Of a stretch of DNA of 40,962 nt, positions 32,776 through 38,459 are shown piece by piece. Position numbers and translations under genes: made by a program. Source of the stretch: Actinomycetes bacterium (lineage in GTDB: Bacteria; Actinomycetota; Acidimicrobiia; Acidimicrobiales; Ilumatobacteraceae); contig BJFW01000009.1 in assembly GCA_014190095.1 (NCBI GenBank), positions 1 through 40,962 on the forward strand, written 5' to 3'. Position 1 is the first letter of the stretch. The number at the start of each line of letters is the position of its first letter. Below the pieces are notes generated by a model. That model was given only the letters and a program-made list of their open reading frames with translations, searched no databases and was not told the DNA's origin.

Positions 32776-33030
32776 GTGCGTGTTTGGATTGACCAGGACT
32801 TGTGTACGGGCGACGGCCTGTGCGTTGACCATTGTCCTGATGTCTTTGTGCAACTCGAAGACGGAATTGCTTATGTAGTGCAAGGTGGCGTGACGTTAAA
32901 TGATCCAGGAAGTTCTGGAAGCCTCGCAACTGTTGAAGCAAAGAATCAAGTTGACGTAGTGAAGGCTGCAGAAGTGTGTCCAGGCGAATGCATATTCATC
33001 GAGATGGATGTACCACTGATTTCTCAATAG
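32776..33030 (+). CDS. Ferredoxin with Asp in place of the second cluster cysteine
   Basis: 84 residues, single-cluster ferredoxin. Ligand positions read C10-x2-D13-x2-C16-x3-C20-P, with C68-P later; a further cysteine, C72, follows. The Asp at the second position is the arrangement of Pyrococcus ferredoxin and of many actinobacterial 3Fe-4S ferredoxins that serve cytochromes P450, so the cluster is [3Fe-4S] or an Asp-ligated [4Fe-4S]. There is no P450 or oxygenase gene nearby. It follows the flavin reductase and MauE-like genes and has its own -10 box. GTG start. Confidence 0.9.
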   Translation: MRVWIDQDLCTGDGLCVDHCPDVFVQLEDGIAYVVQGGVTLNDPGSSGSLATVEAKNQVDVVKAAEVCPGECIFIEMDVPLISQ

Positions 33031-33043: not shown

Positions 33044-34453
33044 ATGAAGTGGCGCCTTTCAGTTCATGGCGCAATTGTCGTTGTGGCAATCAGCGTTTCC
33101 TCTGGGGCTGTTGCCCAGTCCCGCTCTAATGATTCAGCGACGCTTGGTCAATTGAACAATATAAAAGTTGTAATCGAAAGAACTGGGGGTTTCAGGCAGT
33201 CATTTTTTACGGGTTCAGCAAATAGATCTATACCTGTCATGAGTGTGGCAAACGTTGTGACGGCACGCGAAGCTTGGGAGTCAGGTGCGTGGGCGTGGAG
33301 TGCATCGAAGAGGCGAAGTTTCATCAACGACCGAGCAGATGTCTCGGTATTGGCATTAGTGCTTGCAGTAAGTGCGCAGCAACGCGGCGACAAAGACCCT
33401 GCAGATTGGATGCCGAATACAGGTGCGAATACCTGCACCTACTTAAGAAATTGGGTATCGGTGAAAACGAAATGGGGACTCGCAATGGATCAGCGCGAGT
33501 TCACTGCAGTGAAATCTGTGTTCCAAAGCAAGTGCAGTGCACCGGCAACAAGTTCCAGCATTTCTTCACCAACTGCGAGCACTAATGCAATGACTACTAC
33601 AACAACGAATACGACAGCAAAACCGGTGGTAGTTGGAAGTGCTCTTGCATTGTTGCAAACGATACGTGTTGAGAATGAATACCAAGTTGGCTACGACCGC
33701 GCGTTGTTTGAACATTGGCGTGATATTGACGGAGACGGATGCGACTCTCGCGACCAGGTGCTGAAGCGCGACAGCATTTCGTTGCCCCAAGTAGACCCAG
33801 TCAATTGCGACGTAATTGCAGGGGACTGGGTATCTCCGTATGACGGAGCGAGGTGGAGCAATCCATCGGATATTGATATCGACCACGTCGTTGCACTAAA
33901 GGAAGCGTGGGACTCTGGCGCGTGGGCATGGAGTGCTGCACAACGAAAAGCTTTTGCAAATGATACGTCCGACAGTCGAACGCTGTTGGCAGTGACCGAC
34001 TCGGTGAATCAGTCAAAGAGCGATAAAGATCCTTCGAATTGGTTGCCACCACTGCAGTCATACACATGCACATATTTAGGTAACTGGATTGCCGTGAAAG
34101 TTCGTTGGAACTTGTCAATGGATTCAAGCGAGTACGGCCGCATCAAAAATCTGTTGCAATCGACTTGCATTTCGTTGAATATCGCACCAATTCCAAACTT
34201 GCCAAATATTTCGGGTGGGACGACGGTGGTAACGAACCCAGCGTCGCCAATCACCAATTCAACTGTGACACCGAATACGACATCGACTGGCACAGCGGCA
34301 CAAATAAACCCTGGCTCATATTGCTCACCGGAAGGTGCAATTGGCTACTACACATTAAGTGGGAACACCTCGCCGACCACCTATGTGTGCTCCAAGACTG
34401 ATGCATCGGGTGTGCCGTATTCAGGTGGAAGGGCCCGCTGGCGAAGGGCGTAG
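33044..34453 (+). CDS. Secreted protein with two DUF1524 (HNH-type nuclease) domains, first copy degenerate
   Basis: 469 residues with a signal peptide (about 1-25, ending AVAQ). Domain 1 spans about 33-164, then comes a Ser/Thr-rich linker (165-195), domain 2 (198-375), another Thr/Asn-rich linker (376-420), and a Cys-containing tail (425-469) ending GRARWRRA. Domain 2 keeps the nuclease motif DIDHVVALKEAW (D280, H281), the DGDGCDSRDQVL start, and the SVNQSKSDKDP block with N322. Domain 1 aligns with it (NVVTAREAWESGAWAWS, GDKDPADWMPN, CTYLRNWVSVK) but has A69-N70 in place of D-H, lacks the DGDGCD segment and the asparagine. It probably binds rather than cuts. Extracellular nucleic-acid degradation is the likely task. 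Confidence 0.85.
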   Translation: MKWRLSVHGAIVVVAISVSSGAVAQSRSNDSATLGQLNNIKVVIERTGGFRQSFFTGSANRSIPVMSVANVVTAREAWESGAWAWSASKRRSFINDRADVSVLALVLAVSAQQRGDKDPADWMPNTGANTCTYLRNWVSVKTKWGLAMDQREFTAVKSVFQSKCSAPATSSSISSPTASTNAMTTTTTNTTAKPVVVGSALALLQTIRVENEYQVGYDRALFEHWRDIDGDGCDSRDQVLKRDSISLPQVDPVNCDVIAGDWVSPYDGARWSNPSDIDIDHVVALKEAWDSGAWAWSAAQRKAFANDTSDSRTLLAVTDSVNQSKSDKDPSNWLPPLQSYTCTYLGNWIAVKVRWNLSMDSSEYGRIKNLLQSTCISLNIAPIPNLPNISGGTTVVTNPASPITNSTVTPNTTSTGTAAQINPGSYCSPEGAIGYYTLSGNTSPTTYVCSKTDASGVPYSGGRARWRRA

Positions 34454-34494: not shown

Positions 34495-34581
34495 ATGTCG
34501 AAGAAGACCAAGAAGAAAAAAGCCAAGATGCGTCGCTCGAAGGCCAACCACGGTAAGCGTCCAAACATGGGGCGTGGCTGA
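34495..34581 (+). CDS. Small ribosomal protein bL37-like (28 aa)
   Basis: ATG at 34495 opens a 28-codon frame ending TGA at 34579-34581. The protein is extremely basic: MSKKTKKKKAKMRRSK followed by ANHGKRPNMGRG. The segment SKANHGKRPN is the signature end of bL37, the tiny extra protein of the large ribosomal subunit first seen in mycobacterial ribosome structures. GC content and codon use are like the neighbours. TAGCAT nine bases before the ATG (34480-34485) is a possible -10 box. It is below usual gene-finder length limits and easily missed. The VOC gene follows after 14 bases. Confidence 0.85.
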   Translation: MSKKTKKKKAKMRRSKANHGKRPNMGRG

Positions 34582-36584: not shown

Positions 36585-38459
36585 GTGACTTCAGCGCATC
36601 GCATACGCAAGGAAATTCAGTTCTTGCGCGCTGTCGCGGTGATATTGGTGGTGCTGAGCCATTTGGGCATTGGGATGTTCAGCGGCGGTTTTGTTGGCGT
36701 GGACATGTTCTTTGTGGTTTCGGGCTTCGTCATTGGATTGACCACTGTGACCGAACAGGTCACTACGGGGAAAGTCTCATTTCGCAGATTCTTTGAGCGG
36801 AGGTTCTTCCGCATTTTCCCGCCACTTTCGTTCATGGTTGCGGTTATGACGGTGTATGCGTATTTCATTGTTCCGTTTACAAAAGCACAAGACTTTTTCA
36901 TTCAGCAAGCACGTGCCGCCTTGTTCAGCTACGGCAACTTTTTTTTCATGTTTCGCGAATTGAACTATTTTGTTCAATCTGGTGATATCACGTTTTTCCT
37001 TCACACGTGGTCGCTAGGCGTCGAGGAACAGTTCTACATTGCGCTACCGATTGTGCTTGGAGTGTTGGCATTAATCGGCAGACGATTTGATGCCACACAA
37101 CGCATTCGAATCTGGTCAGTGGGGTTTGTCGTTCTTGGTTTGGCATCAGCATTTACGATGTACGGGGCAAGTAGTGAAAGATTTGGTTGGTTTACTCCGC
37201 AGTTTCGCCAGGAGTTTCTGTTTTACTCTCCGTTCACGAGAGCATGGGAATTCTTCTTGGGATTGCTCGTTGCCATTGCAGTTTTGCGATACGAGCAGGG
37301 TAGGAAGTACCTCGGTTCCGCGATGCGAACCTCGATGTCAGTTTTTTCCATTGTGGTCATCCTCTTTGTCTTGGTGACCAGAGTTGATGGCAACGCATCT
37401 CAGATAGGTGCTTGTGCATTGACAGCGTTGGCAACTGGGCTGCTGATTTTTTCGCTTCCAGGTTCAAAGCTTGATGTGCAGAAATTCTTCGGAATTGGAA
37501 TTTTTCAGGCGATTGGAAATAGTTCGTACTCCATTTACCTATGGCATTGGATCGGTGTATCGGTTTCGTTAGACCTCATGAGACAAGATTCCTCACTAGA
37601 TAAGTCTCTTTTAGTTGTGGCTTCAATACTTCCCGCAATAATTTCCTATCGCTTCATTGAGCAACCATTTCGCAAGATGCGAACTGGAAGTACCAAGAAA
37701 AAAGTTTTCTCTGGTCTTGCACTCGTGCTGATCCCAACGCTCATGCTGTTTGGTCTCGATTTCACAAAAACACAGGCCCGCGTAAGTTATGGAAACGTGT
37801 ATGCCAGTACTGTTCTTAGTGGTTGCGACTTCTTGTTTGATGTGTGTGTGGTGGGTGAAGATACAGCGGCAAAGAAAGTCTTGCTATACGGCGATTCTCA
37901 CATCCATCAATTGATTCCGATTTTCGTTGACTACACGAAAACTCATGATGTCCAGATCACGACCTGTGCGTTGTACTGCAATCGAGATAATTACCCATCT
38001 ATCAAGGACGGAACTTTTGCCCCAGGAAACTTTGACCTCGTCATTAACTCCTTCAAAACAAATAGCGAGGAGATAAGTAGGGTAAAAAGGCGTGATCTTG
38101 CTACCACGTTCAGCAAATTCGCATCAGATCGCGGAGCCAGGCACCTCATCGTGCTCGACAATCCGTTTTATTCAGAAAGTGTTGCACCACGGCGAATTCG
38201 TAAACCCGAATTGAAACCGCTCTCTCGCGCCGAACAAGATGCAGTTGCAGACCCAATTACTCAGAACTGGAAAGACGACGCCGGCGAAGGAACCTTTTTC
38301 TATGATCCGTTCGCAGTGTTGTGCAATGCAACCGAATGTCCACTTGAAAAAGACGGAAAAGTGCTGTACCTCGATAACAACCATTTGTCCATGCCGGGAG
38401 TGAAACTGCTTGAACCAAGTTTGATCAACCTGGTCAACCAAATTCTCGCTCGGCAATAA
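36585..38459 (+). CDS. OafA-type acyltransferase 3 with fused C-terminal SGNH domain
   Basis: 624 residues. Residues 1-390 form the acyltransferase-3 membrane domain with about ten helices, including the conserved histidine in VVLSHLG near residue 26, GGFVGVDMFFVVSGF, RRFFERRFFRIFPP and HTWSLGVEEQFY. Residues ~400-624 are an extracytoplasmic SGNH domain with block I LLYGDSHIHQ and a final DNNHLSMPG containing the catalytic histidine. Such fusions add O-acetyl groups to surface polysaccharide or peptidoglycan. The gene stands alone between the 117-aa gene and tRNA-Leu. A separate anchored SGNH protein is encoded at 20296. Confidence 0.9.
   Translation: MTSAHRIRKEIQFLRAVAVILVVLSHLGIGMFSGGFVGVDMFFVVSGFVIGLTTVTEQVTTGKVSFRRFFERRFFRIFPPLSFMVAVMTVYAYFIVPFTKAQDFFIQQARAALFSYGNFFFMFRELNYFVQSGDITFFLHTWSLGVEEQFYIALPIVLGVLALIGRRFDATQRIRIWSVGFVVLGLASAFTMYGASSERFGWFTPQFRQEFLFYSPFTRAWEFFLGLLVAIAVLRYEQGRKYLGSAMRTSMSVFSIVVILFVLVTRVDGNASQIGACALTALATGLLIFSLPGSKLDVQKFFGIGIFQAIGNSSYSIYLWHWIGVSVSLDLMRQDSSLDKSLLVVASILPAIISYRFIEQPFRKMRTGSTKKKVFSGLALVLIPTLMLFGLDFTKTQARVSYGNVYASTVLSGCDFLFDVCVVGEDTAAKKVLLYGDSHIHQLIPIFVDYTKTHDVQITTCALYCNRDNYPSIKDGTFAPGNFDLVINSFKTNSEEISRVKRRDLATTFSKFASDRGARHLIVLDNPFYSESVAPRRIRKPELKPLSRAEQDAVADPITQNWKDDAGEGTFFYDPFAVLCNATECPLEKDGKVLYLDNNHLSMPGVKLLEPSLINLVNQILARQ

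Follow-up and report, generated by a model that had tools for sequence, protein, structure and literature searches.

A tandem DUF1524 protein pairing a predicted intact nuclease domain with a catalytically dead copy

We analyzed a stretch of 40,962 nucleotides (hereafter called the “window”) from an Ilumatobacteraceae genome (assembly GCA_014190095.1, contig BJFW01000009.1), and found a gene whose product joins two copies of a DUF1524 nuclease domain. The comparison of the copies confirms that, as judged from their catalytic residues, one is intact and the other is dead. The observation is stronger than the first-pass annotation of the window had put it: the dead copy is a conserved and selected pseudo-nuclease, specific to certain lineages and joined to its active twin in a single protein. 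As the best explanation of the whole, we propose that the dead copy may be a DNA-capturing domain tethered to an acidic, active DNase, and that the pair would have arisen by tandem duplication within the gene. We give this explanation, which draws partly on analogy, a probability of about 0.42.

Results

Layout of the gene

The nuclease gene and its parts are as follows.

33044-34453, + strand: nuclease open reading frame, 469 amino acids, from the ATG at 33044 to the stop codon at 34451-34453.
33044..33118, + strand: signal-peptide-like segment, residues 1-25, read by eye from the translation.
33140..33535, + strand: copy 1, the predicted pseudo-nuclease domain, residues 33-164 (132 amino acids), delimited by hhalign to copy 2 and matched by an HMM over exactly the same bases.
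33536..33637, + strand: linker 1, Thr/Ser/Pro-rich, residues 165-198, predicted to be disordered (pLDDT below 50 at residues 169-193).
33638..34168, + strand: copy 2, the predicted intact DUF1524/GmrSD_C HNH nuclease domain, residues 199-375 (177 amino acids), assigned by Pfam PF07510 and the AF2 model.
34169..34309, + strand: linker 2, residues 376-422 (pLDDT below 50 at residues 394-417).
34310..34450, + strand: C-terminal tail of 47 residues, predicted to form a small beta fold (AF2 block means 76-90).

Residues 1-25 comprise, as judged by eye, a basic start followed by a hydrophobic stretch and AVAQ, and this signal-peptide-like N-terminus suggests that the protein is secreted. The C-terminal tail has the pattern PGxxCxPxGAxG...YVC...GRxRWR (GRARWR here), and is about 35-49 residues long in relatives. 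It was found in 19 of 41 relatives, always inside open reading frames of the same nuclease family, and occurs both with and without copy 1; family scans gave no family name for it. In three relatives (L022, L023 and L076), the usual tail is replaced by a DRDxDGxACE-type C-terminus, as read by eye, which we take to be an Excalibur-like calcium-binding motif.

Two homologous copies, one of which has lost its catalytic residues

The homology of the two copies is far beyond chance: the profile-profile alignment by hhalign covers all 132 columns of copy 1, with 40% identity and an E-value of 7.9e-31, in agreement with the roughly 130 residues of the first-pass annotation. Copy 2 matches Pfam PF07510 (GmrSD_C) over residues 237-358 with 45.4 bits, against a cut-off of 23. 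Copy 1 alone (bases 33044-33574) matches no Pfam family at E-values up to 1, and its family assignment comes from the homology to copy 2 detected by hhalign, not from a Pfam score. A BCS1_N Pfam match (E 0.0037, under its cut-off) was taken as spurious.

Which catalytic residues does each copy retain? According to the report on GmrD (PMC4619093), the proposed active site consists of D113, H114, N169 (structural) and N178, and the Eco94GmrSD mutants D507A, H508A and N522A have no activity. The corresponding features of the present protein are listed below.

33728..33745, + strand: DGDGCD, residues 229-234 of copy 2, within the segment absent from copy 1.
33881..33886, + strand: predicted catalytic D280-H281 of copy 2, equivalent to D113-H114 of GmrD (PMC4619093).
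33959..33961, + strand: N306, structural Asn of copy 2, corresponding to N95 in copy 1 and, by motif order, to N169 of GmrD.
34007..34009, + strand: N322, metal-ligand-type Asn of copy 2, equivalent by motif order to N178 of GmrD.
33248..33253, + strand: A69-N70 of copy 1, replacing D280-H281 in the alignment to copy 2.
33374..33376, + strand: A111 of copy 1, replacing N322 in the alignment to copy 2.
33383..33385, + strand: R114 of copy 1, replacing K325; Arg in 13/13 dead copies.

Copy 2 holds the complete D-H-N-N set (D280, H281, N306 and N322), and copy 1 has A69, N70, N95 and A111 in its place. The annotation had placed A69, N70, D280, H281, N322 and DGDGCD correctly. Because A111 stands opposite N322, three catalytic positions are lost in copy 1, and not two. 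Copy 1 also lacks a 44-residue segment around DGDGCD, where the hhalign alignment has a large gap; dead copies from the genera labeled g1 and g2 are short of about 44-49 residues.

In genus g1, all nine copy-2 domains have D280, H281, N306 and N322. The nine copy-1 domains have Ala at the Asp position in 9/9, Asn (eight) or Lys (one) at the His position, and Ala, Val or Ser at the N322 position in 9/9. Single-copy relatives (n=77) have the Asp in 76, the His in 76 and the Asn in 77 at the catalytic positions. Over the copy-2 and single-copy columns of an alignment of 51 sequences (A6), D280, H281, N322 and K325 are invariant, and all four are missing from copy 1 of g1. The catalytic Asp and His are lost in all 13 dead copies of g1 and g2. 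Among the four dead copies of g2, two have also lost the structural Asn and three have retained the Asn at the N322 position, and the path to inactivity therefore differs between the lineages. Neither the alignments nor the predicted structures revealed a complete alternative active site in copy 1.

Copy 1 keeps the cysteine pair C131-C164, presumably a disulfide. In ten aligned proteins (those of g1 and that of G023), 30 of its 132 columns are invariant, mainly EAW-SGA--W, R--F, DPA-W-P, C-Y---W---K--W-L--D--E and the last Cys.

Selection on copy 1

We calculated dN/dS by the Nei-Gojobori method for nine g1 orthologs, and kept the 11 of 36 pairs with copy-1 dS of 0.6-1.3. The pairs with copy-1 dS above 1.3 or undefined were dropped, as was the pair L005-L006 (ratio 0.62, from one or two changes). 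In the 11 usable pairs, copy 1 has a dN/dS of 0.09-0.20; nine of these pairs also gave an estimate for copy 2, at 0.009-0.032. Copy 1 is under purifying selection, as had been supposed for the dead copy, and is less constrained than copy 2. This constraint is real but loose, because copy 1 outpaces copy 2 in non-synonymous change by a factor of ~3.5 to 11 in the same 11 pairs. None of the 13 dead-copy genes contains a frameshift or stop.

Predicted structures of the two copies

The full-length AF2 model spans residues 26-469 (model numbers plus 25 give the protein numbers) and was built with 51 aligned sequences. Its mean pLDDT is 82.4, and the relative placement of the copies is not fixed by the model, because the pTM is only 0.53. 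Copy 2 has a pLDDT of about 90-98 over most of the domain, and its predicted beta-beta-alpha metal core consists of strands 277-281 and 314-318 and helix 319-325. The model of copy 1 alone (141 residues, 59 sequences) has a mean pLDDT of 84.3 and a pTM of 0.82, and comprises helices only.

Four predicted helices of copy 1, starting at residues 49, 62, 102 and 125, sit 211 residues before their copy-2 partners (260, 273, 313 and 336). In contrast, the two catalytic strands of copy 2 have no counterpart in copy 1 in the full-length model, where block means of 51-73 and 56-69 show low confidence at the missing strands. In both models, copy 1 has no strand of at least three residues, with block-mean pLDDT of only 51-82 in the stretches concerned. 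On this point the predictions depart from the annotation, which held that the fold had been kept: copy 1 has likely lost the beta hairpin bearing the catalytic residues, leaving mainly the outer helices. We regard this loss as likely rather than certain, because the model confidence is low in those parts of copy 1.

Among solved structures, copy 2 best matches the Vibrio endonuclease I (2g7e/2vnd; Z 9.3, rmsd 3.0, 130 residues, 14% identity), followed by Cas9 HNH domains (Z about 4-5). No solved structure was listed as a match for copy 1. A sequence search of the solved structures gave nothing at E-values up to 1, and Foldseek gave nothing for either model at E-values up to 0.001.

A fixed locus

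Two small genes are the conserved neighbors of the nuclease gene.

32776..33030, + strand: ferredoxin gene, 84 amino acids, upstream (Pfam Fer4_15, E 8.6e-18).
34495..34581, + strand: bL37-like ribosomal peptide, 28 amino acids, downstream (NCBIfam NF047428, 22.6 bits against a required 30).

The small size of the bL37-like gene may make annotation miss it. We compared the loci of 127 open reading frame rows with enough flank; rows repeat in this set, as some loci were fetched twice or more. In the two-copy rows, the bL37-like peptide lies downstream in 47/47 and the ferredoxin upstream in 45/47, and the 80 single-copy rows have both neighbors in 49 and neither in 28. Because they occupy the same locus, the one-copy and two-copy forms of near relatives are alternative states of one orthologous gene.

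Family scans found no DUF262/GmrS in the nuclease protein, its six larger neighbors, the ferredoxin or the bL37-like peptide, and a GmrSD type IV restriction system was ruled out on this ground. A mobile-element origin was also rejected: coverage of the query stays below 80% in every phage or plasmid record, and the matches are to a single domain with less than 60% identity. Where a row gives the impression of covering both copies, it is again a single domain, because its two pieces match one and the same stretch of ~510-570 bases. Further downstream in the window, 36585-38456 encodes an acyltransferase 3 fused to an SGNH domain, of the surface polysaccharide acetylation type.

Distribution among relatives

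A search with the whole protein matched 32 of 61 genomes (its own and 60 relatives), and a family search with the copy-1 alignment gave matches in 144 of 221; one genome, G088, has two matches to this alignment, one of them among the matches listed. The six-frame reading of 160 loci yielded 107 distinct open reading frames with the domain, 22 of which have two copies. Twenty of the 23 g1 genomes searched have a match. Nine of these carry the active/dead pair, at least nine have a single-copy gene whose N-terminus can be read, and in G003 and G017 the gene is cut by contig ends. In genus g2, all 12 genomes with a match carry two copies: the active/dead pair in four (G023, G129, G131 and G133), and two copies that both keep Asp, His and Asn in eight (G130, G132, G134, G135, G137, G138, G139 and G140; loci L062, L064 and L066-L071). 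The duplication is consequently not confined to one strain, the pair being present in nine g1 and four g2 genomes. A third genus, g48, is represented by one genome (G190, locus L072) with two copies and both catalytic sets intact. In wider samples, 103 of 395 genomes of the class matched, with two-hit open reading frames in three (G000, G023 and G139), all of the same family; 67 of 396 genomes of the phylum matched, with two hits in one open reading frame in G000 only.

Several further observations were made in these searches. In L079 (G176) and L029 (G054), the domain is interrupted or cut short by an in-frame TAG, either because the gene is broken or through an error of assembly. Elsewhere in its genome, G019 carries another single-copy paralogue that has diverged (G019:C124:8352-9113, 42% identity), and one distant actinobacterial genome has four separate adjoining open reading frames with DUF1524-like matches (G635:C1:764169-768254). 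The Ilumatobacteraceae-type gene also appears in public MAG records (L088, L095, L133 and others) titled as Bifidobacterium breve, Ferrithrix thermotolerans, Acidimicrobium ferrooxidans and Acidobacteria; these titles look wrong.

Opposite net charges of the two copies

The charges of the copies are an addition to the first-pass annotation. Net charge is positive in copy 1 and negative in copy 2 in all 22 two-copy proteins, which are related rows rather than independent trials; this direction is seen in three genera. As the deletion in copy 1 removes acidic residues, we recounted the charge on only the 133 columns retained by the dead copies. On these columns, the dead copies (n=13) carry +5 to +12, the copy 1 of the both-intact proteins +1 to +4 (the eight of g2) or +9 (G190), and the copy-2 partners (n=22) -11 to -1. 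Single-copy relatives range from -13 to +6 with a mean of -2.2, and at least +5 is reached in two of 77. Since the charge split is also seen on the retained columns, it goes beyond the effect of the deletion.

Origin of the pair

In a first quick tree, which came with a long-branch warning, the dead copies of g1 and g2 group together. When, starting from 92 of the 121 rows, the dead copies of either genus were left out, those of the other were not firmly placed. We then performed AU tests on 66 of the 121 rows, with long-branch and redundant rows removed by hand, and these tests reject no grouping that was tried: g1 copy 1 with the dead copy 1 of g2 (p 0.598), g1 copy 1 with its own copy 2 (p 0.756), the dead copy 1 of g2 with its own copy 2 (p 0.395), and the intact pair of g2 (p 0.743).

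The both-intact proteins of g2 and g48 possibly represent an earlier stage or an independent duplication, and the gene of G190, in its third genus, may be an independent duplication. Because the both-intact g2 proteins already show the charge split, we suggest that binding was separated from catalysis before catalysis was lost; the tree does not tell one origin of the pairs from several. A broader account would hold that active/pseudo tandems had repeated origins at a single fixed locus in freshwater Acidimicrobiia, each time turning copy 1 into a basic DNA-capture domain and leaving copy 2 as an acidic cutter. These secreted bacterial proteins would then parallel tRNase Z(L), and the both-intact g2 proteins would record the charge split before the catalytic loss. 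We consider this account, taken as a whole, doubtful.

Discussion

How might the two copies work together? The charge pattern favors the binding of a polyanion, such as DNA, by copy 1, and the retained features of copy 1 point the same way: its scaffold, cysteines and basic position are kept, its positive charge is raised and its cutting residues are gone, which would make it fit for binding. From the sequence and the models we infer both the DNase activity of copy 2 and the DNA binding by copy 1. On the grounds of charge and analogy, capture is the most likely mechanism, and would proceed as follows.

Duplication and divergence: A tandem duplication within one gene, at a fixed locus, would have produced the two copies. 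Copy 1 would have lost the catalytic Asp, His and Asn together with the segment and hairpin bearing them, while keeping the helical scaffold, C131-C164 and the basic position beside the catalytic Asn (Lys to Arg). It would have turned net basic, with copy 2 remaining acidic.

DNA capture: On its disordered Thr/Ser-rich tether, copy 1 would bind DNA without cutting it and hold the substrate near copy 2.

Cleavage: Copy 2, a putative secreted endonuclease-I-like HNH DNase, would do the cutting. Substrate capture would let the enzyme act on dilute extracellular DNA. These freshwater bacteria may obtain phosphorus from dissolved DNA, and if so, the pair bears on how they do it.

The opposite net charges in 22/22 pairs, and the predicted disorder of both linkers, would also suit a built-in inhibitor, with the positively charged dead copy bound to the acidic copy 2 and blocking it. 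Release would come from DNA, from secretion or from proteolytic cleavage of a linker, and disordered linkers are often protease-prone. We consider such a role unlikely. AF2 shows no confident docking (pTM 0.53), and single-copy relatives at the same locus manage without an inhibitor. Moreover, in nine of the two-copy proteins copy 1 is basic and still has its catalytic residues, so the charge change needs no inhibitory role.

Ranked next, and improbable as well, is a surface anchor: the basic copy 1 would bind acidic polymers of the cell wall or envelope, and the DNase would stay near the cell. The Excalibur-like C-terminus seen by eye in L022 and L023 suggests that envelope association may be common. 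However, the C-terminal tail is found whether or not a protein has copy 1, implying that an anchor may already exist, and we identified no motif for wall binding in copy 1.

We place below both of these the idea that copy 1 is a decaying relic, a duplicate being lost and tolerated as harmless to the folding of copy 2. The higher dN of copy 1, the loss of about 44-49 residues and the at least nine g1 genomes without copy 1 are what decay would leave, but the copy-1 dN/dS of 0.09-0.20 argues against it, as do the 30/132 invariant columns across two genera, the shift of charge in the same direction in three genera, and the 13/13 dead-copy genes free of frameshift or stop. Finally, it is very improbable that copy 1 remains an enzyme whose active site has moved: three of the four g2 dead copies keep the Asn at the N322 position, but the Asp and His are gone in 13/13, apparently with the strand bearing them.

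With DNA capture as the preferred reading, the one-copy, two-intact and active-plus-dead states found in close relatives would form a natural series from a nuclease to a binding domain.

Comparison with known systems

The active domain and the secreted single-copy forms are already known, and the active/dead pair appears to be a new form of them. Our literature search, of limited coverage and thus weak evidence of absence, found no description of tandem active/inactive DUF1524 proteins, which fits the annotation's remark that few such pairs are described, and found nothing on nucleases of the host's bacterial group.

Copy 2 resembles the GmrD part of GmrSD (PF07510) in its D-H-N-N set (PMC4619093). 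Unlike GmrSD, the present protein is of the secreted type, has no DUF262/GmrS in the scanned proteins, and carries two copies, the first of which is predicted to be inactive. Copy 2 is also like endonuclease I (Vvn and the Vibrio cholerae EndoI; Z 9.1-9.3, rmsd about 3, 130-132 residues), a His-Me finger enzyme that is an exported DNase, extracellular or periplasmic. In contrast, the identity is 12-14%, and the matched chains (207-213 residues, one stretch) are without a tandem pseudo-copy.

The single-copy secreted DUF1524 nucleases of Acidimicrobiia and other Actinomycetota have the same active domain, and the nearest of them share the locus and the tail. They differ in having one domain only, with a mostly negative or neutral net charge. 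The both-intact two-copy relatives (eight of g2, one of g48) have the same order, the same downstream neighbor, and a basic copy 1 with an acidic copy 2, but their copy 1 retains Asp, His and Asn.

Pseudoenzyme domains fused to active twins are a known kind of protein, and tRNase Z(L) is the worked-out case among nucleases. According to its description (PMC3714273), the N-domain of tRNase Z(L) no longer has the metal site but still recognizes the substrate, and the C-domain cuts. tRNase Z(L)/ELAC2 thereby shares with the present protein a tandem nuclease duplication, an inactive N-domain, an active C-domain and a flexible tether (PMC3714273). It has a metallo-beta-lactamase fold, is eukaryotic and acts on tRNA, and is therefore a parallel in the way of working rather than a relative.
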